Source of the DNA: Asterochloris sp. CNOR1
Taxonomy: Eukaryota > Chlorophyta > Trebouxiophyceae > Trebouxiales > Trebouxiaceae
Direction: 5' to 3'
DNA length: 64,000 nt
Assembly: GCA_963969365.1 (NCBI GenBank)
Contig: OZ017760.1
Coordinates: 1,240,001 to 1,304,000, forward strand
The notes under the pieces were generated by a model. The model saw nothing but the letters and a program-made list of their open reading frames with translations, was not told where the DNA came from and did not search any database. Positions within the stretch are counted from its first letter, which is position 1. Each line of letters opens with the position of its first letter. Shown one piece after another: positions 6,301 through 58,543 of the stretch. The translations under genes were made by a program, and so were the position numbers.

Positions 6301-9300
6301 AGATGCATGCACAGCACCTGCTCGCTTTGCATGCTCATCAGCAAAAGTTTGCAATTGGTACTGATTCTTGTTGTCAAAGCAGGTTAGACAGCGTCACATG
6401 TGGAGATCAAGGCCCCTGCAGGCCAGCCTGCTGACCTTCGCTGAAGTCATCCAAGAACTGTCCATTGCTCAGGAAGTTGAGTACGTCCAGGGCCCGATTC
6501 TGGCTGATAGTGCTATCAATGACTGTGGGAAAACCTGGAGCAAAGCCAGCTGGCATGGGCCTGCGGTAGAATCCATATGGGTAGCCAGTGGCTGAGACCT
6601 CCCCTGAGCCCTGCAGCAGGACACAGTGCTGCAAGCAAGCCTGCGGCACAGTCAGCTGACATGGGCACAGCACCTGCAGGGAAGCCTGGGCGCCTGTGCT
6701 TTCATTCATGCGACTTTCACCCCAGCCCACAAGGGTAGCCTCCCGCCAAAGTTGACTGGGACTCTGCACCTTGGCAAGCAGATATGCTCCTGCTGAGCTG
6801 CCTGGAGAGATCTCCCGCATGATGCCCAACCTCAGTCAGCAGCTTGGGCGCTTGAGTTGCTGGGGCCATGCAGGGAGCCGTGTCTGAGCCCAGCCTATAA
6901 GCACTGCAGGCTGTCCTTCTCATGGCCACACCTCAGAGATGTTGTAGTACTGGGACTGCAGCCCTGCCACTGCCGAATTGAACATGACGTTGAGGGGGTT
7001 GAACACAGGATCTGCTCCAAATGGGCGCTGGCCGATGGGGCACAGGTCTGCAGGCATGTCTGCTGGGCACACATCATCCTTCCCGGTGGTGTCTGAGCAA
7101 CTGCTGGCTAGGTCCACGAACTTCTGGGTGCATGGCTGGGCGCGGCGTGTCTGCAATGGGGCCAGCACACTGTCCTGTCATATGCAGTGGAGGTACATGC
7201 ATGCCTACACTTGGGTGGGCCTTCTTAGGTGCTAGCCAGGCAGTGACTAGCCAGTTTTGCAATCAACTTGAGCTAGCCACGCCAGCTCCATTTGCAGCTT
7301 TGCTTGGTATCCAGGCAGGCAGCAAAAAGGCAAGCAGACCACCTGAACTGTGCTATTGCTATCAGGCTAGCTCAATGCGCACTGGGAGACCAGGACCATA
7401 AACAACTGTTTCAAGTCCACAGCAGCATCTTTTCTTGAGCGCATGCAGACATGCATATCGATGTGAGCTTGCCCCTTCTGGTATGCACTCCAGGGCTGCA
7501 AGAATTTGATGTTGCTGCACCCCATCACTCACCATGTTGTGGCACTCACCTTAGCGAGCCATGCATGCTTGCATGCACCTCAGTCTTGCAGCTGACCTAG
7601 TCCAGCAATGGCCTGCTGATTATATGCTTGTTCCACATATGGTGGCCACCCACCCTGTTGCCATGGCAGACCACTCGACGATACAAGGCAGGTCGTTCAA
7701 GGCTTCAGTGACAGTCACAAAGCAGCCCACCTGGTGCAGTAATAGCCCGCCGACCACCATGTTGGTGCCAAAGCCCACGAAGCGCCGCACAAGGGGATCC
7801 TGCTCCTTCGCTTCGGCCGACACCTGGCCCTGCTTCACTTGATAGCCATGCCAGGCACTGAAGCAGCCATCGGCCTGCCTGTCCCCAGCTGGGCAGTATC
7901 CTGTGCTAGCGTTGGCTGCAGAGCCGCTGCTACTGCCTACCAGCAACGTGCTGCTGGTGGCAGTGGTGTCAGCTGATGAAACCAGGGTTGTATCAGCAGG
8001 GTCAGCAGCTGTAGAGCTGACTGTGGCCTCTGCGCTGATATTGGAGGCGTCTGTTGTGAAGTAGAAGTGGCCAATGCCCTGCACGCAAGGGCCACAAGGC
8101 AGCATACGTATGCGGCAGCTCATGAGGGCACGCGCTTGTCAGCTGGACTCAGATGCCTCGTGTGTAGCCTCAGATCACAGCAGCCATGGATCCTGAAGCA
8201 AGGCCCTCCAGCAGCAGTATCGTGAGGGGACCGCGCAGGCAGGCATGGCTGTACGTCAGGGAGTGGCGGCATAGTACTTATGCGCCCAACTAAACCATAC
8301 TCAGAAATGGGAAAGGGCAAAGGTCCCCAAAGAATCACGCTCACATTGGGAAGCGGGCACCACACTGCAGCTCTCACAAAGCACTACTGTAAAGGAATGG
8401 CTCCAGCAGCAATGGATGGAGATCAGCTGCAGGGCCAGGGTTATACATAGAAACCCAGTCAAAACACCCACGTGCAGCCCCCTTGAGCAGCCAAGATGCC
8501 ATGCGCTGTGTTGACCAGCCCAGAGCGAGCCCAACTGCATGTAGATGAGTAAGGCACGGTGTTTGCACATGTGGGCCCCTTAGGCAGGTGAAGGTTTCGA
8601 AAAGACGCAAATCACATTTCGCACAGTCATGTTAGGCCAAACCTGCAGCCCCCTTGAGCAGTTGAGGATGCCGTAAGGGGTGTAAACCAGCTGATACAGG
8701 AACTGGGGGGAGGTGACCAGCGCGTTCTGAGCTGCCGCCGTCGAGCCTGCCTGCCCTGACACCAGCTGGTCAAAGGAGCTGCTGGAGATGGAGATCAGGT
8801 TCTGAGCAGGCGTGATGCTGAACAGGCTGAGCACCTGCAGCATGGCGGGTCCTGAAGGTGTGGGCGGACCAGAAGGTGGGCAGGGCAGGTCCAGGACAAC
8901 GCCTGACTTGAGTTGCAGCAAGGGAGATTAGTTTCATGCAGACCAGTACTGAATAGGGTCCAATCTGTTATATATCACGATGAGGGGTTCTCGGAAGGGG
9001 TGCCTGTGCCGAGTGGTGGAGCCTGTGTTGGCACAGCAGCAGTGCCTGTCCGTGGCATGCTTGTCCCCTGGCGCAGCTCAGGTTCCTTGCACTTTTCATC
9101 AATCAAGCAGTCGCGAAGAGAGCGCTGTGTGCTGTGAGGCAGCTGTAAAGCCAGCGCATGCCAAGCACAATGTCTGCTTCGCTTGCATTACAGAGTGTCC
9201 CGGCACCAGCTACATGGCAAGAGACACACGAGAGGCGCAAAATGCCCACAGCGCTAATCTGGTCTTGCCTGCAGCACTTGGCTTTGCATGGAGCTCAAGC

Positions 9301-12300
9301 CGTTCACGCCTGACTGCAACCAGGTCTGCGATCCCGACTCGACAGGGTTGGTTTGCAAGAGGTACTGCAGGCTTAGCGTGAGCTGCAGCAGTGAAGGGAG
9401 TGTTCAGTTGAGAGTTCATCTGCCTTGCATGCTGTGGGCAGTGTCAAAGCAGGTCTCACATGAGCGCCAGCAAGCAGTGCTGTTACATCCTCTTCTGTGC
9501 ATGAGTGCTTTCCGTGCAGGAGCACAGGCCCATGTGCTGCAATTGTACAGCAATGGGTTACCGTTTGCAGGCCCCCAACTGTGAGGCCACCAGCGCTTTG
9601 CAGCTGCCCAGAGACTGTGATGCCAGAGGTGATGCCATTCAGTAGGGCTGCTTCAGAGCTGACAGGAGCTGTGATGTGCCTGCACACAAGGAGCATGGGT
9701 CTGCTGAGCTAGCACCAAGTCTCCTCATCAGCACGGCAGATGCGCATGCCAAATTCCATGTCTGTCAAAGCAAGGAGGCTTTCCCAAAAGAGCATCAGTT
9801 GAACATGGTGCAGTAGCTGCCAGGATGCAGCCGCTGAAAATTGCAGAGCAGTGCGTAACAGCACAAAGTTGATAGCCTGATCAGCAATGTTGTCTCATTT
9901 GAGGCCCTGAATGAAGAGCCCTGGATGCTACATTACTTTGCCTGAGGCCCTGTCTCTGCTGTAGTACTTGTGGCATCTATCAGCAGCACATCACAGCCCG
10001 GCATAAGTGAGGCCTGCAGCATCGTGCCTGTCCCGCTCACCTGCTAGTAGAGGCTGAGAGTGAGAGCACCTGCAGTGGCGGCACGTGGCCATTGCCACTG
10101 GCTGCAGCCAGCTGGCTGTTCAGCAGCACAGCCTCGGCGCTCATTCCGCAGCCCTGCAGCTGTGTGCTGATGCTGCTGCTGGTGGAGTTCAGAGCACTCT
10201 CAATGCTGGTGGAGTTGCAAAGGGACACACTCTGAAACGCGAGAGTGATGAATGCCAGCTTCAGATTCAAAGGGCTGAGGTAGCTGAAGTCAGCGCTGCT
10301 GGCACCTGACTGCAGAAGTCTGCGTGCTGTGGACGCCCTCACATCAAGGGGGCCTGGAGACACGAGGCCAGCACTGCTGACACCAGACTGCAGCAGGCTG
10401 CGGGGTGCAGGCAGGGGCAGGCTGTCTGGGCTGCCTGCGCTCCTTCTGGAAAACCTGAGCAGGCGTGGTGGGCTGCCCACAGCCTCAGCAGCTGGCAGGG
10501 CCAAGTGGGGATTGCTGGTGGCAGCCCAGAGTTGATTGTCAGAGCCCACATTCAGCAATTGCTGCCACATGGGGCCCTGGCGGGGAGCATCCCATTCTCG
10601 CACCAAGCCACTGTCTTCCAGCTGCGCAGCTGCACATTGTCCTGCAGAAAAGGCTGCCAGCAACAGGTGCTTGCAGGCGCCTGCTGTCGCCCGCAGCCGC
10701 CTTCGGCTGCTGCTGCCTGCGCTGCTATTGCTGGTGACCTGGCTCAGTCCACCCGCAGTTACTTTGACATCAAGAGTGACCTGCAGGGGTGGGCAGCAGT
10801 CCCAGTCAATGCTGTGTAACTGATGCATCTGCCACAGAGCACCTGGGCACAAGAGTCACAAACAGTTTGTCGCATGCACTCACCTGGATGGCATAGTGAG
10901 CAGTGTCATTGCTGAGCCCCAGAGTCTCCTCAACCGTTTCTGGCAGCAGCACAGCGCTCCTGATAGCCACATCTGCCGTGCTGACTCTCGTGAAGTTGAA
11001 GCCACTGGGCACTGTGAGGTTGGCTACTGTGTTGTAAGCGGCTGCACTGGTGGACAGCCAGCTTGTGAGAGCCGCCGACACAGAGCTGATCAGGAGACGT
11101 CCCTGTGTGCTGGTGTTGAGGGTGAGGGTGTCGGCTGCTGCCTCTGCCCCCTCCCAGGTCGTGGCATTGCTGAGGAAGATGATGCTGCCTGACGTGAGTC
11201 CCTGCAGGAAGACCACGGCTGTGTGGAGGTGCAGGTGGCAACAAACAGCAGAGTGAGAGTGGAACTGCACAAACATCCAGCCAGCTTGTGGTGGCTACTG
11301 AGGAGCATCGATGCTGTCCTGTTGCAGCCCTGCAGACACGGCCATCACATTGTTGAGTGCAAGGGGCGCTGCCTCCTGAGCGCCCCTGAGGCACAGCAAA
11401 GCGAAGGGGGTTGCGCTTCACAGCAAGGTGGCTCACCTCCCTGGCTCGTGCTCTCAGAAGCACCTGTCAGCCTGGAGTGAGTTTGAGATTCACACTGCAA
11501 GCCCCCTCCACTGCTGCAGCAGCAGATCGAGGTGCTGCAACCCTCATGTACTGGCAGACTGCAGCCTCCAGTGCAACACATCGGCGAGTGGGCCATTATT
11601 CGACCTTGCTGCAGAGTGCCAGCAACTGCAGAGGCACACAGAGACTGACCAGCTCGTAAATCTGCACTTGGAGGACGATGGTCGGAGAAGTGTAGCCCTG
11701 GCTGTTGGTCACTGTCAGGTTGAAGGCGTACAGCCCAGGCAGGCAGGCGCCCAGCAGCAGGCTGGAGGCAGCGCACTCAAAGCAGTCCCCGCTGGCATCA
11801 TTAGCTGCGCAGGCTGGCAGTGACACCACCTGCAGGCACAGCAGAGGTTTCTGCTGTTGCTGATTGTGTCCCTAGGCCAGCGCACTTGCACGAATGAATG
11901 CTGGGCCCTGCATGTGCTGTGAGCATCACACTCACGGTTAGACATGTGTCACAGGCAGCTGCGCCAGGTTGATAGATTCGGCAGCTCATGCAGGCCCCAA
12001 GGAGCAGAATCTGTAGCACAGACTTGCGCTTGCAAAAAGCACCTCCGCAGCACGCCAAATTCGCCAAGCAGCGCAACCCAGGGACCCCCACAGACGATCC
12101 TTCATGCTGAAATTCTTTGCCTGCTGAAGACGGGGGCACAGGCCAGCCAGCCAGCTTACCTGGACGTTACGTGAGATGTCCCCATCTTTGGGATCAGTGG
12201 CGGTGGCCAGGCACCCCGTCTGCATGCCTGCACACCGAGCAGCAAGCTGGGGCTGCTGCAAGGTGCAAGTTGGTCAACTTGTGCATGATCAGGCATGCTG

Positions 12301-15300
12301 CTGCAGAGATCTGCTCAGCTGAAGCATATGGCCTTTCAACATGGCCCCTCAGCGATTCGACAGTGCTGGGCGATGCACCTACTTGCGTTGTTGCAGGCCA
12401 GGAAGGGCACTGCAGTGGTGCGTCCATATGGCACATAAGTAATGTTGCTGGCCCCAAACACCTGCTGTGCCTGAGTGGTGAGCTTGAGTTTGGGGATGGC
12501 AGCTGCAACTGCCAGGGCAGCCAGAGCTTTGCAGCTGACGGCAGAGCACTGACCACTGCAGTAGGACTGCCCTGCAAGTGCAGCACACCACTGTCATTGC
12601 CGCTGCCCCTAGCAAGCCATTGCCTTTGGGCAGTCAGGCACCAGCACCAGCCAAAGCATAAGCGATAGCATGAGGACGCAAGTCATTGGCTGTTGGAGAT
12701 AAGGAGCAACCTCCTCTTGCCGGTGTCTTGCTAGATGTGACAAGGCCTCGATGCCGCGCAGCATGTTTGTGCATTGGGCGACATGAGCTGCTGATTGCAT
12801 TTGGGCAGTCCAAGCTGGATACAGACAGCCTTTCTGCAATGGGAGAGCGCCCGAGACCGCGCTCACCGGTGGCACATGGGTTGACGATGGTGATGGTCCT
12901 GGCTGTGCTGGCTTTCTGTGGCGGCACAGAGCGGTCAAACACAGTGAAGTTGACTGAGTAAACGGTACCCAGAGCAGCATTGACGTTGAGCCCACACCTC
13001 GCCAGACCATAGGTGTTGAATGAGTAACCTGCAGGCTGGGAGCATGGTACCAACTTACACATGACCTGTTTGGGCTGACACCCCTGCTGAGCCAAGGATC
13101 AGATGGAAGCTCTACCTGCCCCCTGTGCCAGGTGACTGCCAGGAACACAACAACCTTGAGGGCGGCGCTGACTGCTGCTGGCAGCAAGGACACAGCAAGC
13201 AGAGGCTGCATCAGAAGTGCAGGCAGGCAGACAGCAGAGCAGTGTGCTAAGTGCTGTAGGCAGCGCAGCTGCTGGGCCCACAGCCTTGCCGAAGTCATGT
13301 CAACTCCATTAGCTCAAGACAGTACTCACCGCTGCAGGTAGCAAAGCTGGCGCAGCTGCTGGGGGCACAAGCCACAGCTGTGAAGCTGATGTTGGTGCCC
13401 AGAGCATCCGTGCCAGTCGCCCCCAGCTCGCAGGGCTGAGCGGCTGTGGGATTCACCCCGGCAGCGCATGCGGCATAGGAGGTGCCCTGCTTGAGGTTGA
13501 CGTTGGTCCCCAGAGTGGTCGAGGTGAGCAGGCTGATCTTGGGTGCTGCATAGCTGCTCGAGGTGCTGGTGCTGGCGGCGGGCACGCAAATCCCATACTG
13601 ACTGCAGGAACCTGCATGGGCAGCGAGAGGACGCCTGCACAGTCATCCAGGTGAGGGCCACCGCAGATCCCACGATGACTGCAGGAGCCTGCACGCGCTG
13701 TGGGTGCAGGAGGCTGCTGTCTACACATGGTGATGGAGTGGGCAGAAGGAACAAAGGTTCTGCTGTGCATAGCTGCTCGAGGGGCTGGTGTGAAGACATA
13801 GATCCTGTAGTGGCTGCAGGAGCCTGCACAGGCAGCATGGGGCTGTCAGTACAGCAATGGGAGTGAGCAGGGTGCTGGAGGCTAAGAGCTGCCTGAAGCG
13901 AAGGGATGCACCTCCACAACTGGCGACAGGCACCTGCGTGCGTCTGTGCAGCAAACTTGGCGGCAGAGGTGCTGAAGGTGCCAATGGTGATGAGAGGCAC
14001 ACACAACATGAGCTAGCTGCCGGTGCCCATGTACATGACCCAATGATGTCAGCTGGAGGCAGGCAGGGTGGAGATACAAAGGAGCCTGCACAGCATGCAG
14101 AAATGCAGATTGCTGCAGGTGCCTGTATGCTCAGATGTTGTCAGCACAAGCCATGAAGGTGCCGGGGCTGACTGGAGATTGCAGGCTGGAAGTGGCTGCT
14201 GTTGCATGTGCTGGGCCACAAGGGCATGTCTAGATGACACTCAACAGCAGAAGGTCAGGAGGCTGCACAGGAATCAGAGGGATAGGGCCCCTGTGGGACT
14301 GCTACAGGGGGGCACACAGCATGCAGGATCAGTGTCACGCACAGCACAGCAAGCACCTTTTTAGCCAAGGCGTGCCCTGCCTCCCGAGGTGCAAACTGAT
14401 CAGATTGCACAGCACAGGCACGCAGAGGCTGAAACTGCTGCAGTTGTAGGCAGCCACCATCAGCACAGGCGCACAGGCAGGTGACAGGCACACAGCAGCA
14501 TGTCTGAGCCTTAGCGCCACCCTCGCCTAACACCCCCGCAAAAGAGTGCAGCATGCCCTGGCCACAGGAAGCTGCCTTCACCTGAAACGTAAAGGATGGC
14601 AGGCACACAGCGCAGGGACCTTGACTCCAGAGTCCCTTTCACCTCACAAGCACAGGACGGGACAGGCAAGCACACCACGCAGGGCCTCCGCCTGGTACAG
14701 TCACCCTCACCTGAAGCACACAGCACCTCCGGGGCAGTGCAGGGGCTGATGATTGCCACAGTGCGGGTGACCGGGGTTGCTGCATTGCAGCACTTGTCCT
14801 GTGCGCTGTATGTGATGATGTATGACATCCCCGCAGGAGTGACCTGGCCGGTATTGACAGCTGCTGCTGGGTTGCCATTGTACGAGATGGCAGCCACAAG
14901 CGGGACGATGCCATCCTGAGCATCTGAGGCAAGACCGCCGGGGTCCTGCAGGGCCATGCAAGGGGCGGTCGAGGGGCAGCTGCCACATTGCTACTGACTG
15001 GCGGGTTGAGGGGCAACTGCCACATGACTACTGACCGGCAGGCCCAGCTGAGGTCACACCACCTGGTCCTGCAGTGCAGGCAGTCAGGTGCGGCGCTGGC
15101 TGCTGCTAGGAGCTGCTGCTGGGCAGTCAGAGCGTGCTGCCCTCCAGCGTGACAGTGCCACCCTGAGCGTGAAGGACACGCTGCTAGCTTCAGACTTCCG
15201 GGTGTTGTAAGGGGCAAAGTGCCAGCCATTGTGCATGCTGCTTGAGCCAAGCACACAGAGTGCTTCCAAAACGAACCGTCCAAGGCCATGCTGCCTGGGT

Positions 15301-18300
15301 GCTGCCGCGCCAGGCAGCAGGCATGTGCAGCAAGGTCATGTGAAGCATAATGGCTGATGGGCAGGCCAAGCATGTTGAGGTCGAGCCCTTGACTGAGGCC
15401 TGGACTGCACTGTGCTGGCAATTCAGTATCACACATGTCAGTAGCCAGCAGGGCAACTCTGCATGTAGCTTGGCCCTTGCGGCAGCGCTGCGGCCCGGGA
15501 ACCGCACCCTCACCCAGCCTGGCTCACCTGGAAGGTTGCTTTGTACAGAACCTGCATGCTGGAGCTGCCTGCCAGGGTGATGAGGGGTGGACTGTTGTCA
15601 CAGTTTGCCGGCCGCGCCACCCCATTGCAAATCGCTGGTGCAGTGGTTGGGGGAGCAGTGGTGGTGTGGGCAGCTGTAGTGGTGCTGGCTGCCACTGCAA
15701 TGCATCACCAGCATTTGTTCTGAGCAATGCAGAACTTCTCACTGGTCATCCACGCAAGCAGGAGGACAAGTTGGCAATTGGTCAACGGCAGTAGCACTGA
15801 GCAGCCAAAAAGCATGCTGTGAGTACAATCTTAAAGGCTCTGGCGTGTCTGAAGCACCAAGGTACGCACCTGTGGTGGTGGGGGCAGCTGTTGACGTGGT
15901 GGGAGCCACAGTGGTCCTCATGGGCGCTGCTGCAATGCAGAAGTCACATGAGTAACAGCCATCCCACCCAGGCAGAGCTGATTGCTGCAGATGTGTAGTG
16001 CAGCCAACAACAAATCCAGAGCCATCAGCTACAGCTGAGGCCTGCATCCCAGCCGATTTGCACCTACAATGTGCAGGCATCAACCATGGCTCAACAAGTA
16101 CTCATCAGACCTGAATACAGGAGTAAGCACCTGTACTGGTTGGTGGCAAAGTGGTGGGCACAGCAGTGCTCATCGAAGGCACAGCCCTTGTGGTGGGCAC
16201 AGCGGTGGTCGTTGCAGCCATGGTGGTGGTTCCTGGCAGAGGTGTTGAAGTTGGTTGTGCTGTGGTAGTGGTCGGCTGTGCCATGGTCGTGGTGGGTTTC
16301 ACAGTGCTTGTAGGTGGCTCTGATGACGTGGTTGCTGGCAGAGGTGCTGGAGTTGGCGGTGCTGTGGTGGTGGTGGGCTCTGCTGTGGTCGTGGTGGGTT
16401 CCACAATGCTTGTGGGTGGCTCTGATGAGGTGGTTGCTGGCAGAGGTGCTGGAGTTAGCGGTGCTGTGGTGGTGGGCGGCTCTGCTGTGGTCATGGTGGG
16501 TTCCACAGTGCTTGTGGACGGCTCTGGTGAGGTGACTGGCGGCTCTGCAGCGGCTGAAGAAACAGCTGTGACATCGGCAAAGATGCGGCTGCTCCAAGGC
16601 ACAGCTAGTGCCATGTTTGACACCTGGAGGCTGGGTGAAAGGTGCAGGGGCAGCTGCTGGGGCCGTCATAGTCGTGGTGGGAGGCTCATTTGTGGCGCCA
16701 TGAGGGGCTGTGGTCAACGCAGCAGTGCTGCTGTTGGGTAAGTTGTAGCAATTGGAGCAGTCATGCTTCCTCAGGAGGGTTCAGCAGTATCAGAGTCAGG
16801 AAGGGCAGTGCTGGGTTCACCCGTGCTCGTGGACAGCTCAGCAGTGCTGGTGTCAGGGACTGCAGTGGGTAGGGCGTCAGTGGCTGATTGGGTTCAGCAG
16901 TGCTGTTTTGGGGAGTCTGTCAGCAGTGCTCATGGAAGGATCGCCACTGCTGTTGTCAGGGACACTTGTGGTTGGTGCATGTGTACTGGAGGGGGGTGCA
17001 GTGCTGGTCTCAGGGATGGCCACACCTGTTGCAGGCTCAGCAGTGCTGGTGGGTGCTAGCTCAATGGATGTAGGTGCTGCTGTGCTGGTCACTGGCAGAT
17101 CCGTGGTTGCAGTGGCTGTGCTAGTGGGAGGCGCAGCAGTGCTTGTCTGACAAGCAGCGGTGCTGGTGGGTGCCAGCTCGGTGGATGTAGGTGCTGCTGT
17201 GCTGGTCACTGCCAGATCTGTGGTTGCAGGGGCTGTGCTGGTGGGAGGCCCAGCAGTGCTTGTCTGAGGAGCAGCCATGCTGGTCTGAGGCGGGGCAGTG
17301 CTGGTGTTGGGCGCCGCAGTGGCTGTGATGCGGACAACAGAACCAGGTGGGGCCTGTGCAGGGTTGGGCGTGGCAGATCGGGTCGCAGGATACTCAGCAG
17401 CAGGTGCACGACACCCCATCACACATTCTGATCACGGGCCGCGTGCATGAGGTTATATGAGGGCATGCAAGCCACTGCAACAGCTTGCTCATAGGCTGCA
17501 AACTTCATGCTTCAATGGCAGTGCAAGGCAGGATTGCAGCAAGCGGACCCAAGCGACCAGCATGCAAGCAGGTTGAGACAGGCAGCCGCCAACCTGCAGT
17601 GGTGGTTGGCGGCGGCGGCTCTGGGGAAGGAGGGCTGCAGCCAGACAAACGTTGTTGGAGTACTCGTCAAACTGAGACACAGTGCTGGCAGACCCCTGAC
17701 AGCAAGCACGCAATGCTGGCCGCAGTGCTCCAGGGCATGACATCATGCGCTGGTGATGGATCACATAGGCAGGCACCCTCAGATCAGCTTGGGGCCAGTG
17801 GCAGTGGCCTGATATCTTGCCCCCGTCGCCTGCTGCAGTGGCGGGCTGCAGCAGACAATGGGGGCAAGACATCAGGCCTCCGTTATGGGAGAGGCTGTCA
17901 GCAGTGAGGTGCGCAACACTGCAAGTGACAATAAGGCAGCAGTCGACCCAACCACGACAAGCATTTGCTCCAGAGCGGGGCTGGCCTCCTCCCACAGGCA
18001 GGTCCCTGGACTTCCTGGGGGGGCTGGTTGCAGGCCCAGGCAAGAACCCACCTTGGTGGCGGCTCTGGTGGGGGTGGACTACATCATGAAAAGCGCAAGT
18101 CAGCAGGATGCCTGTGTGGCAGAGGTCCTTGTGTGCTGGGACAAAGTGCATGCTAGGTAGTTGGCGTGATGATATGTGCAGCCACCTCAGGACTGGTGTG
18201 TTGAGGCATCAGTCCGGTTGGGAGCGGTATGGCATTGGCAGGGACAACAGGGGCAGAAGCTCCCCATGGGCGGTGCAGAGGTGGGTCTGGCAGCATGCAG

Positions 18301-21300
18301 ACATGCAGCACTGCCGGCAATGCTGCCAAGCAGGGCTTTTGAAGCTTGGCTGGATCATGTGGCCAGGCAGATTCGCCTACCTTGGAGGTTCTGGAGGAGG
18401 AGGCCTGCAGCAGGAGAGCCATCTGTCAGATGAGGTCAGCATCAGCTACACATCAAGTCCGATGGCAAGCTGACGCTGATGCATGCGCCATGGCTGCAGC
18501 AGCTCACCTTGGTGGCGGCGGCTCTGGTGGTGGCGGACTGCATGTGGACACAGCACAATGTCAATGCGAAAAGAATCCAAGGTGCTCATTGGGCAGAACA
18601 AACATAAAGCAAGCGGGGAAGGAAGAAGCTGGAGGTGCATAGCACCAGTGTGCGAAGCAGTAGTCCACAAAGCAGTGAAATGCACAGGATGTTGGAAAGA
18701 GGCGGCTGACAATATAGTGCAGCTGAATAATCTGCCAACACCAGTAAGTGCTTCAAGGCTACACTGCTCGAGTCCCATTCACCTTGGCGGCGGCGGTGGG
18801 CTCATAGGCCCGGGTGGACTTGGTGGTGGACTGCAACAACAATCAACACTCTTCACACTGTCTGCCTGGTCGAAGGCTGCTACAAATGAACTTTGATGTG
18901 GCATGACGTCCTGGACAAACAGTAGGCCCTGCTGGCTGCCACAGAGCCTTGCCAAGCACAGACTGCGCACCCTTAATGTGGTGCTGACTTGAGCTCACAG
19001 GCAGACCCAACGGCAACAGCACGAGACACTGAGCACTGCGTTTCTGAGCAGGGAAAGCAAAATGGACGCCCCACATGCACCCAGCGTCAGGCAGACCTTG
19101 GCTGCCACCAAGGCGGTGGAGGGCTTGGCGGTGGAGGGCTTGGCGGTGGTGGGCTTGGCGGTGGAGGGCTTGGCGGTGGAGGGCGTGGTGGAGGGCTTGG
19201 CGGTGGAGGGCTTGGTGGTGGAGGGTGTGGCGGTGGAGGGCTTGGTGGTGGAGGGCGTGGCGGTGGAGGGCTGTAGGCCAAACCAGAGGAAGGTGTCAAG
19301 CGGCGCCACAACTGCACTGAAAGCGCTGTACAATACACAATAGCATGTTCACCCCAGCAGGCACAACACTGGAACATGACCAGCACATTGCAGCAGACAA
19401 ACTGCGTGCAACACCATCAGGCATGGCACACCTGGGCGGTGGTGGATTTGGCGGTGGAGGCCTGCAGGCACCAAGATGTGATTGAGCTGACAAGGCCCCC
19501 CCAAAAAAGGACAGCATCACAGGGTTTGCTTGGGCATTGCACAGAGGTGCTGAGCCGCACCCAAGAGACCTCGGTGGGGGTGAAATTGCTTGTGCAGGCA
19601 GTATGGCTTGCAGGTGAGACCAGGGACCTCAGTAGAGGTAGGAGCGAGCTCTGAAAATCAGCAGAGGTACTGAGCTTGGACTAGCTTGCTGCAGCAGTGC
19701 AGAAGTTGCTAACAATGACATGCCTGTCTGGTCGCTTGGTGGCTTTCTCTGCAACAACCCTTAATCATGAAGAGCAGGTCCAGAAAGGCATGGCTTGGCA
19801 TGTTGAAGCAATGCATGTACCTTGGTGGCGGCGGTGGGCTTGGAGGTGGCGGATTGGGCGGTGGACTGGGCGGCGGGGGGGGGCTGCAGGCGGCAAGGCG
19901 CACTTGAAAACCATGAGCACTTCAATGAGACGAGTCCAGTGATGCATGTGTGCCACGCCAACACCTGGCTTCTGTCCGGCTGGAGGAAAATAGTACTGTG
20001 ACCACCAGGGTGGAGGAGGGCTCGGCGGTGGCCTACAGGGCGACACTGGTTTCTGAAGACAACCATTCACTCCCCCAACATGCAACCAGAGACAGCATGT
20101 TATCCACAGGCGAATGCCTCACTGACCACATGGCCCCATCTTGGCAGCACGCCGCTGAGCAGCATACGTGTTAGATGCAGCGCGGGCTGAGCATCAGATG
20201 TAGCTGGCCGTCTTCAGCGCTGCCCAGGAGCAGAAACAGGCAAAGGCAGAGGGGCTGCTGGCCGACAACCGAGAGGCTACAGCTGCAGAGCAGACCCTGT
20301 CTGGCACATTTGTAAAGTAGGGTACTCACGAGGGGGGTGGCGGAGATGGTGGTGGAAAAGGTGGTGACGGAGGTGGCGGCGGCCTGCATTGAGGCCAGGC
20401 AGGGGGGCCTTTACCAAGCTGCCGGAAAGTAGGGCTCCCTTAGGCATGGCAGCCGGCAGCTATTTGTCATGCCGGAAAGCAGGCTGCTGCTGGGTGGTGC
20501 GGCTGGATTATAGCAGGCAGCTGCATTTTGAGCAAGGCAGCACTTGCAAGCGCTTCAGCAAATGGCAGCAGGCAGCTGCCAGGAATGCGCTGGTCTCTAG
20601 GACAGCCTCTAAAAGCTCTTTCCCTGCCCAGCGCCAGTGCCATGCAGTGCCTCTGACTACCCCTAGCAGACTCATGAATTTGCTCTGGCTGTGCAGAGGT
20701 TTCCAGGCAACGTTTCATGTGCCTTGGCAGCAAGTGACAGCTAGACGACTGCTGATGAGTTGGAGTGCACTCAGGCAATGAAGAGACAGCACTCACGAGG
20801 GAGGTGGGGGTGGCGGTGGCAAACTGCAAGACAAAGGCTGTCTGTTAGTGGGCGAAGCAGTGAACTGCAACTGCGCTTGCAGCAGGCTGGCCATGACAAA
20901 CTGTGGCCTGATAAGTCCCCACAGGTGCAACTCCAAAACAGACAGGGCAGAGAGCACAGCACATGACCATGGCTGGGCAACTGGCCAGAGATGGACTTGC
21001 TTCTGCTGCACATGCATCAACCCTTACCTGGCATACAGGTTGCTCTGTAGGGGACCAGGAATCCTGCTGAAGTTTGGGCCAGACTGCAAGCAAAAAGTGC
21101 ACTTGGTGTTGCTTGCCTTCTGACTGGCACGGGTTGGTGCTGATCGGCAGCTCCTCGGGAGAAACATCATGCATTATGGGAGCACTTCTTCAGTGCACCA
21201 TGCATCGTGGCAGCAGAACGAGTCCGAGGCCTGTGTGAAAGCCCATTACATAGAGACAGCACTGCCCAGGGGTGTCAGTCAGTAGCAGCTGCTCCATTAA

Positions 21301-46200: not shown

Positions 46201-49200
46201 GCAGAATGCTCGCCACACAGCATGCATCCTGAGCAAGAGATAGGCGGCCTCTGCCCCAGGCTGCAGGCATCACCCCTCCATACCAGCAGCTAGGCACAAC
46301 CGCACACTGCCAGACAGGCTTGCCTAGGCGGACCACTCTGCTGCCCTGTCCATGAATAGGGCGGCCCGTCTTGGACTGTCCAGGCCTGTACCAGCTGCGA
46401 CTGTGATCCCCCTCTTGATGAACCCCTTCACAAGGTTTTCCTGCCCATTGAGGCTTGCACCAGCCACCAGCAGCTCATCCTTTGCCTTGCCCTGGTGAAC
46501 TACCCCAGTCCCACCACACTGAAGCCCTCACATCAAGCCCTTGGATAGAGCTGCCTGCTTTGCTTTGCTCACAGCAGGCAAATAGACCCTTGCCTTACCC
46601 TGGTGGGCTGTCCCAGCCGGACCACTTGAATGCCCCTCTCCATGAGCCCTTCCACAATGTTGTCCACTGCGGCATTGGTATCTGCACAGGCCAGGGGTGC
46701 TCCCAGTGTTGCCTTGGCGACAGGCAGCTTCCTGTTAGTCAGCACCATCGCCTCCAGATAGGCCAGCAGCGTCCTTGTCTTGCCAGTGCCGGGAGGGCCC
46801 TGCAGGTAGACATGACTTGAAGATGAGGTTGGGGGTGCTGAGGCAAGGCCATCAGCTAAGCGCCTGCACAAGGGGCCCTGTGCGGGCTGACAGCTTGATG
46901 CAGGCAGACAAGCATAAGCTGGGCCAGGAGCCCTCTTGTCCTTGCAAAGACTTACATCCAGGCAATGGGTCTCAAGCGGACAACAATGTTCAGACCTGTA
47001 TGTGCAAGGCAGGGTCTACAGGCAGGCAAGATTTTTGAAGGTTAAGTGTGCATCATTTGAGTTGTGCATTGGCATGCAGCCCAATCTGGGCCTGCTGCAG
47101 GCCTGCGACACCTGCAGGACATTGTGCTGGGGTGCCCTCAAGATAACGCGTCCAGGCATTTGACAGCAACATGCAGGTGGCTGTAAGGTTTGGAGGCTGC
47201 CGCAGCAGGTGTGAGCAGCCTGCAGCGGCAAGCAGGCATCACGTGCCTAGGTGCAGGGACGGGCTGGCCCCATTCAATAGGGACAGAACTAGAGGCCAAG
47301 ATGTTGGATGCGAGCGCACATGACTTAAAGTGGAGGCTCACCTGCCACAGGGAGCACGTCTGCATCACAGCCTTGGCTACCCCGTCACGCTGGCTTCTGT
47401 TGAGGTCTGACAAGCTCGCCAGATTGGTGTTCATTTCTTGCCGCCACTGCGTGGCCCATTCCTTGTTGAGCGTGCTGCAGACAGCAGCATCCTCTACATG
47501 AGTGAGCAGAAAGAGCCGAAGGGGCGGAGCACCCAGATCTGGGGAAGGAAGGGAAAGCGCTGTGGCTGTGTCAACATCTGCAAAGCCCGCATGGGCACCT
47601 TCAGGAGTGCAACACAAGTAGCTTAGCAGATTGGCGGGCACGTGACAGGCTGCCGCTCAGGCAGCATGGGTCGAGTGTCCTGAAGCAGATGAGGTGCGTG
47701 CCTGTGGGTTGGACGACACGCCAGTACACATCAGCGCGCACCACCAGCCTCATGCCAATCATGTTGAGGCCTCACAACAGCCTGACAGCAGGGCAGCCAC
47801 AGCTCCCTCATCCTTCCAGCAAGACAGTAACAAACATAATGCTGGCAAGGCACCCAACCTGATCAGGTCAATGCCATGACCCACCAGCAACGCAGCCTCA
47901 GCCCCCATCCAGCCTCCAGCAAGGGCAAAGCAACCCCACCTCTCTTCAGCAAGGCAACCACATCACGCCTTGTCTTAGCACTGCAACTGGCTCACGGGTC
48001 AGTCCACCAGTTCGCAGTCTTGGACAGCTGTTCAGGGCTGCGTCTGCCATCGCCCTCCCCCAGCATTGTCAACAACACCCTGCGCTTCTGCAGCAAGCCA
48101 TCAGCAGTATCAGTCAGAGGCCAGGCAGCTCCCAGCAGCGGGCTTGAGCATGTAGTGCAAGCGCGAATTAATGCTGGTCTTCCCAAATTGTCAGGCTGGG
48201 CCAAGCTGAGCTCATCCCAAGAAGCCATGCCTGGGCCAGGATACGGTTTGTCATGCCATGTAAAGCTGGCAACAGGTGGCTGCATGACAGCTGGGCAGCT
48301 ACAGTTGCGACTGCAGTCACTTTGACAGCGCGCCAGCGCTGACTGTATGCACAAGAGTCTGAAAGTGCGCAAGGGGCAACGGGGGTGAGATGTCTGCCAC
48401 CCAGTGAGAATGCCTGTCGTGCAGTGCAGAGCCCTGCTCCATGTGGCACACAGGTGAGTGGCCTGCCCAGAATGAGCCAAAACTGCCGATGCCACCCGCC
48501 CTGCCAGTGCTTGCTGTGCAATGCCAGCCCTGCGGTCAGAGCTCTCTTAAAATTTCCAATGCCAAGCAGAGATGGAGCTGCCGGCCTGGCGCTCTGCAGC
48601 TGCAGGAAAAGAAAAACCTGACCTGCATGAACTGGGCGGTCACTTCATTGCGATTAAGAGCCGTCCACGCTTTCTCCCCTTGAGCAAGGAGTATCTCAAA
48701 TTGTTGCAAGGACACGACGTTCCCCCATTTCTCCAGAGCCTGCAGGACATCTAGCTTATCAGTAGCTGGCAGCGTCGGTAACACACTCAGGAAGGAATGC
48801 ACACAGGCATAGGCTTGGAGCCCACCACACAATAACAGGTGACACCTGTGCTGTGATGCAAGGCCATGCAACATCACCTTGATCTGCCGCACTGAAGTGT
48901 TGTCCACCTCAATTTTGTCAATTCTCCAGAGAAAGTCAGGGCCTGCACAAGAGCAGGACATGGCAGTCAGCCAAAGTGTAGCTTTAGGGCCTGGCATATA
49001 CATGGACGCAGGCTTGGAGCTTCATCACCAGCACATGTGCACATGCGCAGCAACCAGCCAAAGCAGTCACATCTGACGAGCAGCAAGGCAGCTTCCAAAA
49101 ACATGGGCAGCTCAGCCAAAGCAGGCGTTACTGGCAGGAGGGATACAATCCTCACCTTTCCTTGCAACTTGCGCTTGAAGTGCAACATCAAGATTCCCAG

Positions 49201-49911: not shown

Positions 49912-52778
49912 TGTGAGGGGAGCAGCGGCCTTTTCTGACCAGCTTCGTCCTCTTCTGAGTCAAGGACTGCCCCAGCTGCACTGGCAGGGCTGGTCCCCCT
50001 TGCCGCCGCCTGTCCCCGCGCCCACTGGGGGGCTTTTGGGGAGACAGTGAACTCCCAAATAACCTCATTGTACAGGTCGCCTGCACCCAAGGGGAGGGAC
50101 AAGGCTGCTGCATGGGAAGTGCTCAGCGAACTGAACCCCAGGGCAGCCAGCTGCCTTTATCGGCTTCAGCTCAGCAGGTCTGGCCTGCCAAACATCAGGA
50201 AGTCGCCCAACAAGATGGACTGTTGGGCAGACTGGGCTAGCACAATGAGCACCTGCATGGGACAGGCCTAGTGGAGCCACAGATCCTCCACAGCCCACGC
50301 TCCAGGTCTCTGAGTCAGGGCCATGCCTGATGCCTCATACCAAGCTGGCATCTGAGGAGGCAGGGCACGTGAAGCAGATGCATGCAGCTCTGCAGCAGGG
50401 AATTGGTCTCAACAGGTAAAGAGCAGCGGCTCACCTGCGCGTTTGGCGACAAGATGGCTCAAGATTTCCCCCTCATCACGCAAGATCTTTGGATCCATCC
50501 TGCAGCCAGGATCAATTGTTTCCAAGGACTGTCTGCAGCACATTGCAGACAGCACAGCATCACAGAGCATGGATATGAGCAAAATCATCAGGTGTAGAAC
50601 ATTGGGTAGGAATGCTGGCAAGCTGTGATTGCCCAAAGGTGTTGCTGCCCACATCCTGGCCCTGCTTGAACGGCCTTGATGGCCTGGCTGAACAGCCTGG
50701 TGCTTCACATTCGCAGCTCACACTTTCAGCCAGCAGAAAGATTCAGCCCTGCTGTAGCCAAGCAGGCCACTCCAGTATGCTTTTGACACCTCCCGGCGCG
50801 AGCGCTCACCTCTGTATGCGAGCCGTCTCAGCCTCCTGATCCTCCTTCTGTATCTGGACCAGTTCAGCAAAGCGCATCTGCAATCATCAGTGCAGTTCCT
50901 CCTTATGCTGGTCTTGCCTGTCAAGGCAAGCTGCTCCACATGCCTCCAGGCTCTCTAGGAGAGTGCTGGCAGAGCGAGAACTGGCGGAAGCTAGGTACAC
51001 ACGGTGACGAGCCACGCTAGAGAACAGCTTTGTTGGCCTCCGCCTCGCTGGCCCTGCTGGCAGTGAACAGTGCACCCAGAAAGCTGCCACACCCAGTCGC
51101 CAGACCGCTGCTCCATCACAACAGTACCTGTGGCAACCCAATCCTGGCAGTGATTCATTCAAGCAACTGCTGTAGGGACTGTCAAGAGCATCAGATGCAT
51201 AACAATACCTTGACATCATCTAGCCTGGCCTCAATGCGGTCTGCAGGATACCAGCTGGGGAAGTACCTGGCAATCAGTGCCACGGCCCTGGGATCTCTGA
51301 TGTCCCGCCTGGTCAGACCCTGCTGGGTCTCCGCATGCCGCATCTGCGCGCTCGCTGCCCCTGCGGCAGGGTTGATGCAAGACCTCAGAGAGAGTGGAGT
51401 CACACAGCAGATGTGTCCTGCAGACCTCCCTGCACGGCGGCTGCCTACACCTGCCACAACTGTGGGAGCCCCGGCCCTGCAACAGGGATCCTGCTACACT
51501 TTGCAGGAGGAGAGGCTGTCAAGCAGCAGATGTGGCATGCAAGCCTTGAAGCTGTCCCAGAGATGCCTGCACACAGCCTGAGGCCAAGGGGGCAGAGCAT
51601 AGCTGAGGGGTCACACAACACAACACACATGTGAAGCATGAGTTGCTTGGCCGGAGCGCTACACAGGAAACGCAGGCATTGCCACCTGGCTCCCACAGTG
51701 CTACAGCCAGTGCCAAGGTGCAATCGCCACCAATGCAAGATTTTGCTGCAGGGTCACTCCAAGTAGCACCAGCATGGCCTGCTTGCCCAGGACAGTTCTT
51801 GGGTCTGTGCTGCTGAGGCTCCCATTCAGCTGGATGGCAATGCAAGTGCTTCTTGAGCGCACTGCTGAAGCACCACGCAACACCAATGTGGGGTCATCCA
51901 GAAAGCAGTCTAGCACGTGGTAGGGCTGTGCAGCAGCATGAGGCACTGACGCTTGCGCTCATCGGCGTGTGCCTGCAGGAGATGGACTGCATCTGTTGTT
52001 CCAGGAGGCGGAGACTGGCGGGCATCCGCCCAAGCACCACTGGTCCTGCCTGCAGCAGGGAGCAGCACAATTATTGAGCGGATGCCGTTTGTGTCTGGAA
52101 GGTACGGACGGCATGGGTACCAGCATCACTGCCCCTCCTGCAGCATGCACAGTGCAACAGGTGGCTTGGCCCAGGGGCACATCATCTGGACAGTGCTGGC
52201 AGTACCCTAACCAGCGGGGAGGTGTCTGGGCATGACTGCCACTTGCCTGCAGCACAGCAGTTGACTCGGCTGCAGGGTGCACTCACTGGACCTCATCTGG
52301 GGCAGCGGGGAGGTGACCTGGCAGCACAGCCTCTGCCTGCAGCAGGAAGCAGCACAGCAATACTGCTGTGCTTGCATGTTTGGGGGGTGCCCTGAGACGT
52401 ACAGCCCACTCATTGCTGTCAGCGTGCATGTGTCTGAGAAAGTCAACACGATTGGCTTATGGCATGCTTTTTATACATCAGGTGTCCAAGCAGATAGTCG
52501 CACCGCACAGGCAGCGCACAAGACACTGGAGTGACAGTGGGAAACACCTGACAGTCATGAACCCAGTGGCCTACTGCCTGAAGAATGTGCACCTATTGAA
52601 GACGATCACCTTGGCCATTGTAGAGAGCACCTGCTGGCGCTGCAGCCGTGCCACTGGTGCTGCTGAAGGGCCGCTGAGCCTGTTGCTGTGCTGACAGAGC
52701 CTGTGGCTGCGCTGGCAAAGCCTGCCCAGTGCTGCCTCTGGTCTGTGCCCACCCCATCCCATTATTGGAGGCAGAAGG
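49912..52778 (-). CDS. Uncharacterised exons, N-terminal part of the helicase gene or a separate gene
   Basis: Convincing minus-strand exons with clean splice signals but no recognised domain. They lie at 52610-52778 (Ala/Gln/Ser-rich, NNGMGWAQTRGSTGQALPAQ), about 51738-51925 (HVLDCFLDDPTLVLRGASAV ... TVLGKQAMLVLLGVTLQQN) and 51209-51383 (RRDIRDPRAVALIARYFPSW). Others lie at 50810-50877 (MRFAELVQIQKEDQEAETAR), 50435-50532 (TIDPGCRMDPKILRDEGEIL) and about 49912-50081 (GDLYNEVIWEFTVSPKAPQW). Same strand, dense spacing and absence of any visible promoter gap suggest they could continue into the helicase at 49269. Phase was not closed, and the sequence could equally be a different protein. Confidence 0.45.
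52010..52365 (-). repeat. Tandem units in the uncharacterised N-terminal gene region
   Basis: Three segments share CTGCCTGCAGCAGG.AGCAGCACA or CTTGCCTGCAGCACAGCAG blocks (around 52047, 52244 and 52334). Two share GCGGGGAGGTG starts (52213 and 52306). On the minus strand each gives an acceptor followed by QAGPVVLGRMPASLRLLEQQ, QASGSHAQTPPRWLG or QAEAVLPGHLPAAPDEVQ. One or two may be real exons; the others look like decayed duplicates. Confidence 0.5.
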
Positions 52779-53104
52779 CTGCAGGCACAGTGGCGCTCTG
52801 CTTGATGCCAGCGTGGCAGGCCGGACAGCGAAGAGCATGTACTCAGCAGGAGGAGTTTGTAGGGACAGAGGCTGACGCCAGCAAGGATGGATGGGGCCTG
52901 CTTGACAGTAGCTGGCCCTACACAAAGGACAGGACACCAACGCAGCGGGGTGCATCTGCAGGCGTGCACAGAAGTGGATCTGAGACTTCAGCCAGAGTGA
53001 AGACCAGCCCGCCAGGCAGCAACTGGCTCCACAGAAAGCACAAGAGGGAGTTGCAACCGTACACAGAGATGCAGGCTTGATGCCTCAGCGTCCTGCACAA
53101 GTGT

Positions 53105-54664: not shown

Positions 54665-54719
54665 GCAGCGCCCTGGCCGGGCAGCTGCAGCAGCAGATCA
54701 CCCGCCTGCAGCATTGATG

Positions 54720-56440
54720 CTCAGGGTTGACATGGCGAAGCATGATGTGGCAAGCTGTGCTGAGCATGCTGCTGGCCTGAACCTAGCACGTGTTTGAAGG
54801 CAGCAGATGAGCAGGACATGCCTGGAAGCCATGCAGGGGGCAAGAGCTGCATATGCGAAGACAGCAGATCTTGCCTGGCGTCTGGTGGCCATCTGTCTAA
54901 GCACGTGGCCGCCAAAGGTCCTTGTGCCTGCTCCATGATTTTGTAACATACAGATGCCAGCAATCTGCCTAGGCAACACAGTTGCTGCCAAGGCCTGGCA
55001 TTGGCTCAGAGCAGCAACTTTCAGGGCAGCAGGTCTTGTCAGCAGCAGTCACAACTGGGTTAAGCCCTGGGGAAAGTCGACTTCGGCGGGGACGAAACGC
55101 TGGACTCCTGGGTAAAAACAATCTGCTTGCCTGTCACATAGGCTTCACATTGGCAACCCCCACCCTCATAGGCTTCATGCGCTTACAGAGGGCCATGGAT
55201 AATCAGCCCAGCCTCGGACGTGTGAGCACAGTCCAAAGTTGGGGGACCCAGAGAGCGCCTGATCAAGCTGACTGCCTCCTTCGTGGTCAGTGCCTGCTGA
55301 TGAGCCCCATGGTGTGGTCTGTGTGCCTTGCAGACACATGTGCAGAGCTGCCCCTTGATACCAAGGCATGATGGCCCTCCGTGTCTGTGTAGTGCATGCA
55401 GTTGCGCCTGAAATCTTGAGAGTACTTGTCGATCAATGGTTGATCAACAAAAGGAGCTGAAGCAGATTAGAGGGGCGACAAGATGATGTGAGAGGGGGCT
55501 CCAGGATGGCATGCCTTTTGCATGCCAGGGCTTGGGCGGCAGAGCCCGTCATCCACAGGTATATCCCGGAAAATTGACCCAGCCTGAGTTCATGGGAGCA
55601 GAAGAGAGACCCTGCTAATTGCATGTCTGGTTACTGTGGAAGTCCCTCGAGACCCTGACCAATGTCTGCGCCCACATATCAGAAGGCTGCAATGTCCCTG
55701 ACTGCTCTGATCATGGGGTCAGGCATCCATAGTATGCACAGCAGCGGGCCATGTGAGCTCTTGCCCACAACTTCTGAAACAAGCACACCGACAAGAGTTC
55801 TGCTCTGCCCTGTTACCCGCGCTTCCTCTCGGCTTCCAACAGGGTCTTCCTCCCACCCTTCCCCTGCAGGTCCAGCCTTTCCTGGGCAGGATGAGAGAAT
55901 GTGTGCCGGGGCCCCAGGCCTGCTGCTGCTGTGCCGTCCGGGACATGCAGCAGTGCATGGCCTTGCTGGCCATGCTTGCCCTCAGGCGTTGCAGAGCTTC
56001 AGCAATGCAAGCGAAACCCTCCTGGCCAGCAGCAGGCACACCACGCATTGCAGTGGGAGCCACCTGTCTGAGCTGGTACAGTAACACTGAGCTGGTCAAC
56101 GTGTACTACAGCACCAACACCAGCGTGTAACAGTGCCGCACAGAGCCTCCATGTCATCATCATCATCTACATCCCTGACAGCATTCTGGATGGCTGCGTG
56201 GCACTCAGCCCCGAACAATATGGACGACTCACCATTGCACTCTGGCGCTCATATGGGCTGTAGTATTGATCTCTAAAACACGTTGTTGATCATCAATGAC
56301 ACTTAATTCCGTAACTGTCAAGATCTGTGGAAAAAGCTTTTAGTCTTTCTGGACTGCACGCCAGCTCTTCGTGCTGTGCCATCTGTTGCAGCTGCAGCCA
56401 CAATGAAGGCAAGACTTCAATGTAGCTGAACCACCCTGCC
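54720..56440. other. Intergenic region with a remnant exon copy
   Basis: This 1.7-kb stretch separates the minus-strand coiled-coil gene from the plus-strand secreted-protein gene. The two are divergent, so promoters of both may lie here. The only coding-like sequence is a decayed exon copy at about 56066-56130 (listed separately). CATCATCATCATC and A/T-rich stretches at 56.15-56.35 kb are near the expected upstream region of the secreted-protein gene. No TATA box or other motif is clear enough to call. Confidence 0.35.
56066..56130 (+). pseudogene. Partial duplicate of exon 4 of the downstream secreted-protein gene
   Basis: The sequence reads YSNTELVNVYYSTNTSV and then a TAA stop. It is nearly identical over about 15 residues to SNTVNVYYSTNTSM in the gene at 57.7 kb (shared DNA includes CAACGTGTACTA.AGCACCAA). 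The copy lies about 1.65 kb upstream of the original, on the same strand, and stops soon after the match ends. It therefore looks like a broken exon fragment from a tandem duplication. A separate short paralogue with unrecognised further exons is possible but not supported. Confidence 0.6.
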
Positions 56441-58543
56441 TTGAAGAGTTACCACGGACTGACACATGTTTCAGCTGCTGTGCAGGTCCTCAGCCTGCTG
56501 ATGTGCCTTGTAGCACCTGCTGCCATCTCAGCATACTCATTCCCATCCTGTGTCAACTATGATGTCACAGCTGGCGTTTGCGGGGGCTTCATTCGCTACT
56601 ACTCCAGCATCTTGCCCACAGCAAGCCATGCATACAACTTTCAGTGAGCAGCAGAGGCCACTCCCTTGAGCTCATTGGAGTGAGCGCTTTGCCTCACAGC
56701 CTGCCGGGGTGGCTGCAGGAAGAATGCCTACAACTTCACTGATACCACCAGACTGGCAAACAATGCAGCTTCCCAGCAGGATTTGGCCATTGACCCCACC
56801 CTTCAGGTGAGCTGGCCAAATTCTGGCAGCTGCCCTGTTCTGCAGTTGTTCAACAAGGTGGCAGAAGTGAAGCAGGGTGCTCTTGGCAACCAGTGATGTT
56901 TGGCATCACAAAGATGAGCCAGCCAGCAGCCAGCGACGTGATTGTCATGGCACGGCCACAGGACAGCTGGCGGTCTGTACATGCTGTCAGTCTGCGGCAT
57001 TGCTGAGCCCTTCTTTCTTTGCCCACAGAACCGCACTGCTGCTGCCGTGCCTGCCGTCCCCAACAGCCAGCAGGTCTTCGCAGCTTACGGAGCCTATCCA
57101 CTGCTGACTGCAGCTCCAGGGCAGGTGACCCAGCGCCACCAGCTACACTGCACATGTGTTGCTTAAAGGTTGTGTGTAGCATCACGTGCCTAGCAAGTGA
57201 TTTTAGTCTGTACACGTGCCTGTGATGCTACGCATGAGCTTAATGAGAATGCTTCTTCTGCCTGGCGCCTACATTCATGCTGGATGGGCTGCTCTGTCTA
57301 CAGCACCGCGTTCGTCGGGTTGGCTTTCTGGTGTAGAATCCGCATGCAACACTCTGCAGCCAGGTGCTGGCTGGCTGCCACCTGGATGGCCTGACTGCTG
57401 AAGCATATAGCTGTTTGCTGCCCATGAAACAAGCCTCTGCCCGTTGATGCAGAACATCACAATGACATGGCCGCGCACTGCTGATCCTGATGGCACCCCG
57501 GAGGACGGTAAATGCCCTGCAGTGTACTGCTCTCTGGCCATAGCTTGGCACCTTGCGATGTGAGCAGACCGCCTGGCTCTGCAAACTCAGCCTGACACAT
57601 GCAGTTGGATCAGGCAGCAGGACAGCACTGGCTGATCTGTGCCCCTCTCGCCTGGCTGCGCCTGCTGCACAGAGACTTTGCTGCATTCTTGACCCCGCCC
57701 TGTGGTGCTTTGCAGGCAGCAACACGGTCAACGTGTACTATAGCACCAACACCAGCATGAACGCTGGGAATGCGTTCAACAGCAGCAAGGACCCCACGCT
57801 GTCAACCTTCATGCGGAATCCGGTGGCCACGCTGAGCTTCCTGGGCGACAACAACTGCACTGTGAAGGACGACAAGTATGACCTGGCGTCCCACTGCCGA
57901 GCGACCTTTGCGCTGCCAGGCAACCTCACGGATGGCAGCATCTACACCTTCCTGTGGCGCTGGTGAGCTGCTGCATTCCTGCTATATGCTGCACTAAGCA
58001 TAATGGCGGACAATGCAGCCTCACAGATGGTAGCATCTGCACCTGCTTGTGGCGCTGGGCATGCAGGCCTGATTGCTGCTTGGTGAGCTTCTGCAAGGAG
58101 CATGTTTTGGTCTCAAGAGGCTATGCCTCACAGAGGGCAGCTCCTCCTGTGGAGCCGCTGAGCAGGTCATGAGCTCTGCATGTGCATAGGCATAGCTGCA
58201 AAGACGACACTCTGCCTTTCAAAGTGTCTGTGGTAAGGGGCTTTTCGCATCGCTGAGCCGCGCTTAGCAGGCCTGCATGGTCTATTCCATGCCATAACCT
58301 ATGCTCGAGCACCAAGCATGCTCTGCCTAGAGTAATCTGTTCAGGGTTTGAGTCCTGCTGCTGCAAGCGTGCTGCAGATTTAGGCAGCCTGTTTGCAGAC
58401 AATGGTAGCAGGCTCTGTGCCTGCACTGCAGGGTCATCCTTAACAATGGTCCCCAGCCGGTGGATGGTACCCCACTTGTCCTCGTCTATAACTATGCCTT
58501 TGAGGTTGCGGTCAGCTCAGCGCTGGCTGTTGCAGCAGCGTAG
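56441..58543 (+). CDS. Secreted LPMO/chitin-binding-like beta-sandwich protein
   Basis: Exons read at about 56441-56643, 56719-56806, 57029-57124, 57716-57962 and 58432-58543 (TAG stop). The first begins with a hydrophobic signal sequence (VLSLLMCLVAPAAISA) followed by YSFPSCVNYDVTAGVCGGFI, so the protein is probably exported. The start codon is not fixed: 56441 itself is TTG, and an in-frame ATG lies within the signal segment. The later part (NVYYSTNTSMNAGNAFNSSK, VATLSFLGDNNCTV, GNLTDGSIYTFLWRW, VLVYNYAFEV) resembles the C-terminal half of copper monooxygenase and chitin-binding folds. The N-terminal His of active LPMOs is not visible, so catalysis is doubtful. Most junctions close in phase, but exon 3 to 4 does not, so a small exon is probably missed at 57.13-57.71 kb. 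Confidence 0.66.
57984..58085 (+). repeat. Intronic tandem copy of the 3' edge of exon 4
   Basis: The sequence CCTCACAGATGGTAGCATCT and the following GTGGCGCTGG repeat, with a few changes, the end of the exon at 57924-57962 (CCTCACGGATGGCAGCATCT ... GTGGCGCTGG). The copy lies about 94 bp downstream, inside the intron. It would encode LTDGSICTCLWRW against LTDGSIYTFLWRW. A GTGAGCTT sits a little further on at about 58081, echoing the original donor GTGAGCTG. The copy is not expected in the mature mRNA because the final exon joins in frame to the first copy. Confidence 0.72.

Follow-up and report, generated by a model that had tools for sequence, protein, structure and literature searches.

Among short insertions (<100 bp) of the human genome, small tandem duplications are the commonest, and they are described as a product of break repair (PMC8355091). 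In the regulatory DNA of flies, decayed local duplications have been inferred from an excess of self-similarity at short distances, beyond what tandem-repeat finders detect (PMC3188502), and a boundary-crossing tandem duplication is reported to have produced an intron in potato (PMC4974935). Repeats in direct orientation have also been described around the splice sites of introns; these are 4-30 bp long, join the two borders of one intron, and were tested against equal base frequencies (PMC11782384). Here, we describe same-strand local copies of exon and intron sequence in a 64-kb stretch of DNA from the green alga Asterochloris sp. CNOR1 (contig OZ017760.1, positions 1,240,001 to 1,304,000 of the forward strand), which is called the window below. 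The guanine-cytosine (GC) content of the window lies between 54% and 65% across 2-kb steps, and the median intron length is 416 bp (53 introns between reliable exons); a GC content of 57% and a mean intron length of 462 bp are given for Tetradesmus obliquus (PMC5966456). A first-pass annotation had noticed decayed copies of exon edges in the introns of several genes, had read them as limited to exon-intron junctions, and had attributed them to recurrent short tandem duplication. The copies and the tandem duplication stand, while the limitation to junctions does not.

The copies are real and far above chance. When the window is compared with itself, same-strand ungapped matches with a score of at least 15 number 9 at lags of 30-100 bp, 16 at 100-200, 8 at 200-300, and 0 at 300-400, with 5 at 400-600. 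The 33 direct matches at lags of 30-320 compare with means of 0.2 and 0.5 after dinucleotide shuffling within blocks of 150 and 300 bases (ten shuffles for each block size), so that shuffled sequence, the comparison proposed in the first-pass annotation, fails to reproduce them. The copies lie on the same strand, since inverted matches at lags of 30-300 number only 2, and they are local, with 8-16 matches per 100 lags at 30-300 bp compared to 0.1-0.3 per 100 at lags of 3-21 kb. Simple repeats and the arrays found by Tandem Repeats Finder (TRF) were masked for the lag scans, local-copy queries, and pair searches, but the intron array 14967-15039 stayed unmasked because it counts among the local duplications itself. 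Coding stretches of low complexity (1.1-2.3, 15.5-20.9, 30.5-33.8, and 35.7-36.2 kb) were excluded from most counts; with these omitted, there are 25 matches at lags of 30-320 instead of 33, versus 0.5 per equal distant search.

Gapped extension yields 30 pairs with a score of at least 22 in 53.6 kb, whereas three distant-lag searches of equal size gave 1, 1, and 0. The 30 pairs have lags of 37-287 bp (median 126) and identities of 58-89% (median 65%), and by eye they make up about 23 places, or one per 2.3 kb. The copies span 6,290 of 53,596 bases. Each of the ten places named in the first-pass annotation has a same-strand local pair at this threshold, and places absent from it include those at 5.6, 10.3, 29.0, 49.8, and 61.2 kb. 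In 50 kb of Escherichia coli DNA, which served as a check of the method only and not as a eukaryote baseline, the same scan found 1 match of at least 15 at lags of 30-320 and 0 and 0 at distant lags. The autocorrelation of non-exon DNA shows an excess identity of 0.2-0.3% at 20-130 bp and a smaller one at greater distance, and permissive TRF runs give a slight excess over shuffles (20 versus 7-14 arrays and 35 versus 16-31).

These local copies are decayed low-copy tandem arrays. In 53% of 51 pairs, the alignment extends over at least 0.8 of the lag, compared to 9% in a control from 39 distant pairs; the remaining 47% fall short. At multi-copy places the spacings are additive, with 106 + 119 = 225 at 41.3 kb and 77 + 135 = 212 at 13.6 kb, and spacings of 108 and 224 occur at 46.4 kb. 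Since same-strand matches are not raised at lags of 3-21 kb within the window, the copies form no dispersed family, and the signature of an introner or transposable element (similar copies at a distance) is absent over that range. Taken together, the copies have decayed in the manner of non-coding DNA. The parts of 19 pairs that align to exons have 47 gaps, of which 41 shift the reading frame, and the mismatch rates at codon positions 1, 2, and 3 are 0.27, 0.24, and 0.28 over all exon-aligned parts. By gene, they are 0.27, 0.21, and 0.33 in a helicase gene; 0.29, 0.27, and 0.28 in a polycystin-like gene; and 0.22, 0.19, and 0.24 in a USP-like gene. The doubtful exon 46392-46491 was removed for this per-gene analysis, having been kept in the exon map for most other statistics.

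The relation of the copies to exons was assessed with 72 exons from later splice models (length of at least 50, coding score of at least 2; median length 162 bp). Six exons were marked for manual removal ahead of counting, five of which had cleared this filter, and a first self-trained splice model, which cut the window into 474 exons, was rejected. Coverage by copies is 13% for exon bases and 11% elsewhere. Among 50-base queries, a strong local copy (z>3) is found for 13.6% of exon edges, 10.5% of exon interiors, and 9.7% of introns, and the corresponding reverse-strand rates are 3.4%, 1.9%, and 1.9%. Of 35 pairs with a score of at least 20, against which the exon map was rotated, 12 join intron to intron (19.1 expected by rotation). 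The copies are thus not confined to exon edges, which is where the earlier claim of a junction-bound pattern fails.

The repeats are, probably, the decayed remains of short tandem duplications that strike the stretch generally, some of them in three or more copies, and that are kept where they are harmless. Selection would remove duplications that damage a coding exon, while those lying within introns, or reaching from an intron across one exon edge, would be tolerated, as they leave the original splice site and frame intact; the second copy would then be free to drift. Since the units are shorter than 300 bp and the exons are short, a unit that places exon sequence in an intron would have to cross an exon edge, so edge copies would follow geometrically. 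A unit overrunning an exon edge would, in the same way, leave a false edge within the intron. A possible molecular source is break repair in which long staggered ends are filled in and then joined, a pathway documented to give tandem duplications.

Some of the observations weigh against such a general process. In the rotation test, exon-intron pairs make up 19 of the 35 pairs when 9.8 are expected (P 0.003), and boundary-spanning pairs number 20 compared to an expectation of 14.1 (P 0.03). Together with the broad coverage, this leaves an about twofold exon-intron excess superimposed on the general process. Such an excess would arise if conserved exons kept their pairs recognisable longer, but this account, which predicts closer likeness in exon-intron columns, failed: exon-intron columns are 73.2% identical and intron-intron columns 72.3% (14 boundary-spanning alignments), a weak comparison because local alignments stop where identity falls. 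Among the 53 introns whose flanks are reliable, only 11 contain a pair with a score of at least 22. Finally, third-position mismatches should be clearly in excess in a neutral copy of a conserved exon, but the excess is mild in the helicase gene and nearly absent in the polycystin-like and USP-like genes. In the polycystin-like gene its absence may reflect alignment noise or weak constraint.

One could also attribute the excess to a duplication process that is itself biased to exon-intron junctions, for example through splicing or transcription. Besides the twofold excess of exon-intron pairs, this would fit the 22 of 142 exon edges that match their own flanking intron at a rank of at most 0.02, versus 2 for the reverse complement. 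However, intron-intron pairs are common, local-copy rates are nearly alike for edges and interiors, and the edge-bound look of exon copies would arise from geometry alone, which together make a junction bias improbable. It is very unlikely that the copies serve as alternative or mutually exclusive exons maintained by selection. The copy at 30107-30182 in the USP-like gene, a candidate for the supply of new exons that had also been suggested, does have an acceptor and about 24 open codons and is spliced by one lenient model, but a stricter one skips it, and 46392-46491 likewise retains splice signals and an open frame. The frame-breaking gaps and the nearly even mismatches by codon position argue against selection on the copies, and the UPF1 structures (2 of 19 matches) leave 46392-46491 unaligned. 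The USP match is slightly higher without the 30107-30182 copy (23.9 versus 22.1 bits), a difference too small to decide. As a set, the copies lack the kept frame and the strong excess of third-position changes expected of selected alternative exons, and the possibility of selected exons that the first-pass annotation had raised against itself falls away to that extent.

Slimmer still is the chance that these are traces of intron birth by AGGT tandem duplication, which had been suggested as a supply of introns. In that model, the intron is the second copy, its start matches the start of the next exon, its end matches the end of the previous exon, and the lag equals the intron length. Border matches on these sides do reach a rank of at most 0.02 in 5 of 53 introns (3' end with previous exon end) and in 3 of 53 (5' start with next exon start), slightly above the roughly 1 expected; one of these introns, 46492-46598, is doubtful and lies within an array. 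Yet among the best 11 border-to-border matches of the 53 introns, 4 are self-overlap artefacts in short introns and the 7 genuine ones all miss the intron length by 32-70 bp. At the same rank, 12 of 53 exon ends recur in the following intron and 6 of 53 exon starts in the preceding one, which is the wrong side for the model. A count of 10 of 53 with 80-base flanks is not evidence because the flanks self-overlap in short introns, and the count of 6 of 53 with 40-base flanks has the same fault in one 70-base intron. AGGT duplication is therefore not supported as a general cause, and single old cases would be invisible. The idea that chance and composition produced the copies, with common splice motifs and CTG-rich words imitating them, has practically no probability left: the trained acceptor consensus, CTGCAG|G, is a frequent word, but the local-shuffle, inverted, and distant-lag controls exclude chance for the strong cases. 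With this consensus, weak sites resemble exon edges more readily, and it may mislead reading by eye.

General tandem duplication, as preferred here, could be taken further. In this lineage, short tandem duplication (units up to about 290 bp) might be unusually active and act as a main engine of intron growth, leaving one recognisable place per about 2.3 kb, with a real exon-edge bias, and feeding spare splice sites and pseudo-exons steadily into introns; we regard this larger claim as rather unlikely. The kind of event is already known, and the density is known from this window alone. A literature search, mainly outside subscription journals, found no survey of how dense such duplications are in introns or in green algae. 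Should this density extend to the whole genome and be higher than in other eukaryotes, the genome would allow the lengthening of introns and the copying of splice sites to be watched, and one could ask how often copies turn into exons. Comparing exon edges with their flanking introns, with distant and inverted controls, is an approach that can be reused for any intron-rich genome.

The individual places lie on the minus strand, except for the one at 58.0 kb. Exon starts with their acceptors are duplicated into the preceding intron at 41.3, 42.9, 30.1, 13.6, and 10.3 kb. In the helicase gene, the start of exon 41137-41302 has two such copies (41241-41550; spacings 106, 119, and 225; main pair 44.1), and the start of exon 42610-42829 has copies at lags of 81 and 194 (42753-43048; scores 33.3 and 24.0). 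The USP-like exon start and acceptor (29949-30022) have their upstream copy, 30107-30182, at a lag of 160 (29949-30182; 24.8, 71% identity). More than one copy precedes exon 13330-13611 (13488-13867; spacings 77, 135, and 212-219; 42.7, 64% over 173 columns), and a further exon start is copied at a lag of 78 (10261-10407; 26.8, 72%). The CAG acceptor is retained in the copies at 41.3, 42.9, 30.1, and 13.6 kb.

Exon ends, or parts near them, are duplicated into the following intron at 46.4, 43.7, 8.5, 58.0, 5.6, and 61.2 kb. The end of helicase exon 46599-46799 has copies at lags of 108 and 224 (46317-46720; gapped scores 31.2 and 26.1) and a short one at 289 (an ungapped 21-base match), and the end of helicase exon 43784-43945, with its GTGAGTGC donor, has a downstream copy at a lag of 103 (43654-43811; 24.8, 75% over 57 columns). 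A segment of exon 8616-8851 close to its 3' edge recurs at a lag of 171 (8470-8691; 25.5, 76%), the end of plus-strand exon 57716-57962 at lags of 95 and 195 (57918-58194; 35.5 and 22.0; ungapped, 86% over 44 bases), and a segment of methyltransferase exon 61308-61424, likewise close to the 3' edge, at 207 (61114-61348; 22.0, 89% over 28 bases). Polycystin-like exon 5651-5864 has a tandem pair with a lag of 71 across its 3' edge at 5651 (5563-5717; gapped 33.0, 72% over 87 columns; TRF period 70 x 2.1). The statement that copies often carry their splice signal is borne out at the four places that keep CAG and at 43.7 kb, where the donor is retained. It does not apply at 46.4 kb, where GC stands in place of the donor GT, or at 8.5 kb, where the pair is internal to the exon, ends 25 bases short of the edge, and has no splice signal.

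Other places have a looser relation to exons. A weak pair crosses the 3' edge (14711) of exon 14711-14945 at a lag of 67 (14577-14741; 22.8, the lowest of the ten named places), and a 37-bp tandem repeat lies in an intron only, with no exon edge (14964-15143; 31.6; TRF 37 x 2.0). Local pairs with lags of 100 and 287 (52018-52428; 36.7 and 27.0) fall in a gene with weak exon models, so the exon edge there is uncertain.

The self-trained splice model places most of the genes on the minus strand and a single plausible one on the plus strand, at 56.7-58.5 kb; the main exon of this plus-strand gene has no Pfam match, and the label LPMO-like given to it earlier is not confirmed. The helicase gene has AAA_11 and AAA_12 Pfam matches above the cut-off, and its best structural relative is UPF1. 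The UPF1 structures align exactly as far as edge 46599, though the segment alone is weak at 16 bits. The methyltransferase exon has a PrmA-type match barely above the cut-off, and the matches of the USP-like gene to UCH and of the polycystin-like gene to PKD_channel are both below it. An Rfam search gave no match, nor did a plasmid search of window positions 1-8000; one viral scan gave six short helicase-motif loci, which were left unused, and another gave none.

Larger repeats are found where the polycystin-like gene model begins: a Thr/Pro/Ser-rich, mucin-like coding stretch (16131-17419) has tandem repeats of 102 and 117 bp. Very short exons (24-63 bp) at 18052-20823 code for similar Thr/Ala/Ser/Lys-rich pieces and repeat, donor sites included, at lags of 275-467 bp. 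This series looks like whole-exon duplication and was omitted from most counts because it is of low complexity. A 15-bp minisatellite of 10.9 copies at 19112-19272 apparently codes for a KPSTA-like repeat.

How do the copies compare with the systems described so far? Like the small tandem duplications of break repair (PMC8355091), they are adjacent, on the same strand, and tens of bp in size, but the events in the window are old and decayed and reach lags of 287 bp. As in fly regulatory DNA (PMC3188502), decayed local duplications are read from excess self-similarity at short distance; the fly signal is given as extending to about 70 bp in regulatory modules, whereas the window has its excess over 20-130 bp of non-exon DNA and long, alignable intron copies. 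The repeats resemble those described near splice sites (PMC11782384) in being same-strand and around intron-exon borders, but in the window, 20-base flanks from opposite ends of the same intron have a median match rank of 0.5. The potato case (PMC4974935) shares with the window a tandem duplication across an intron-exon boundary that carries splice signals along; the window copies differ from it in missing the AGGT geometry and in showing no new intron.

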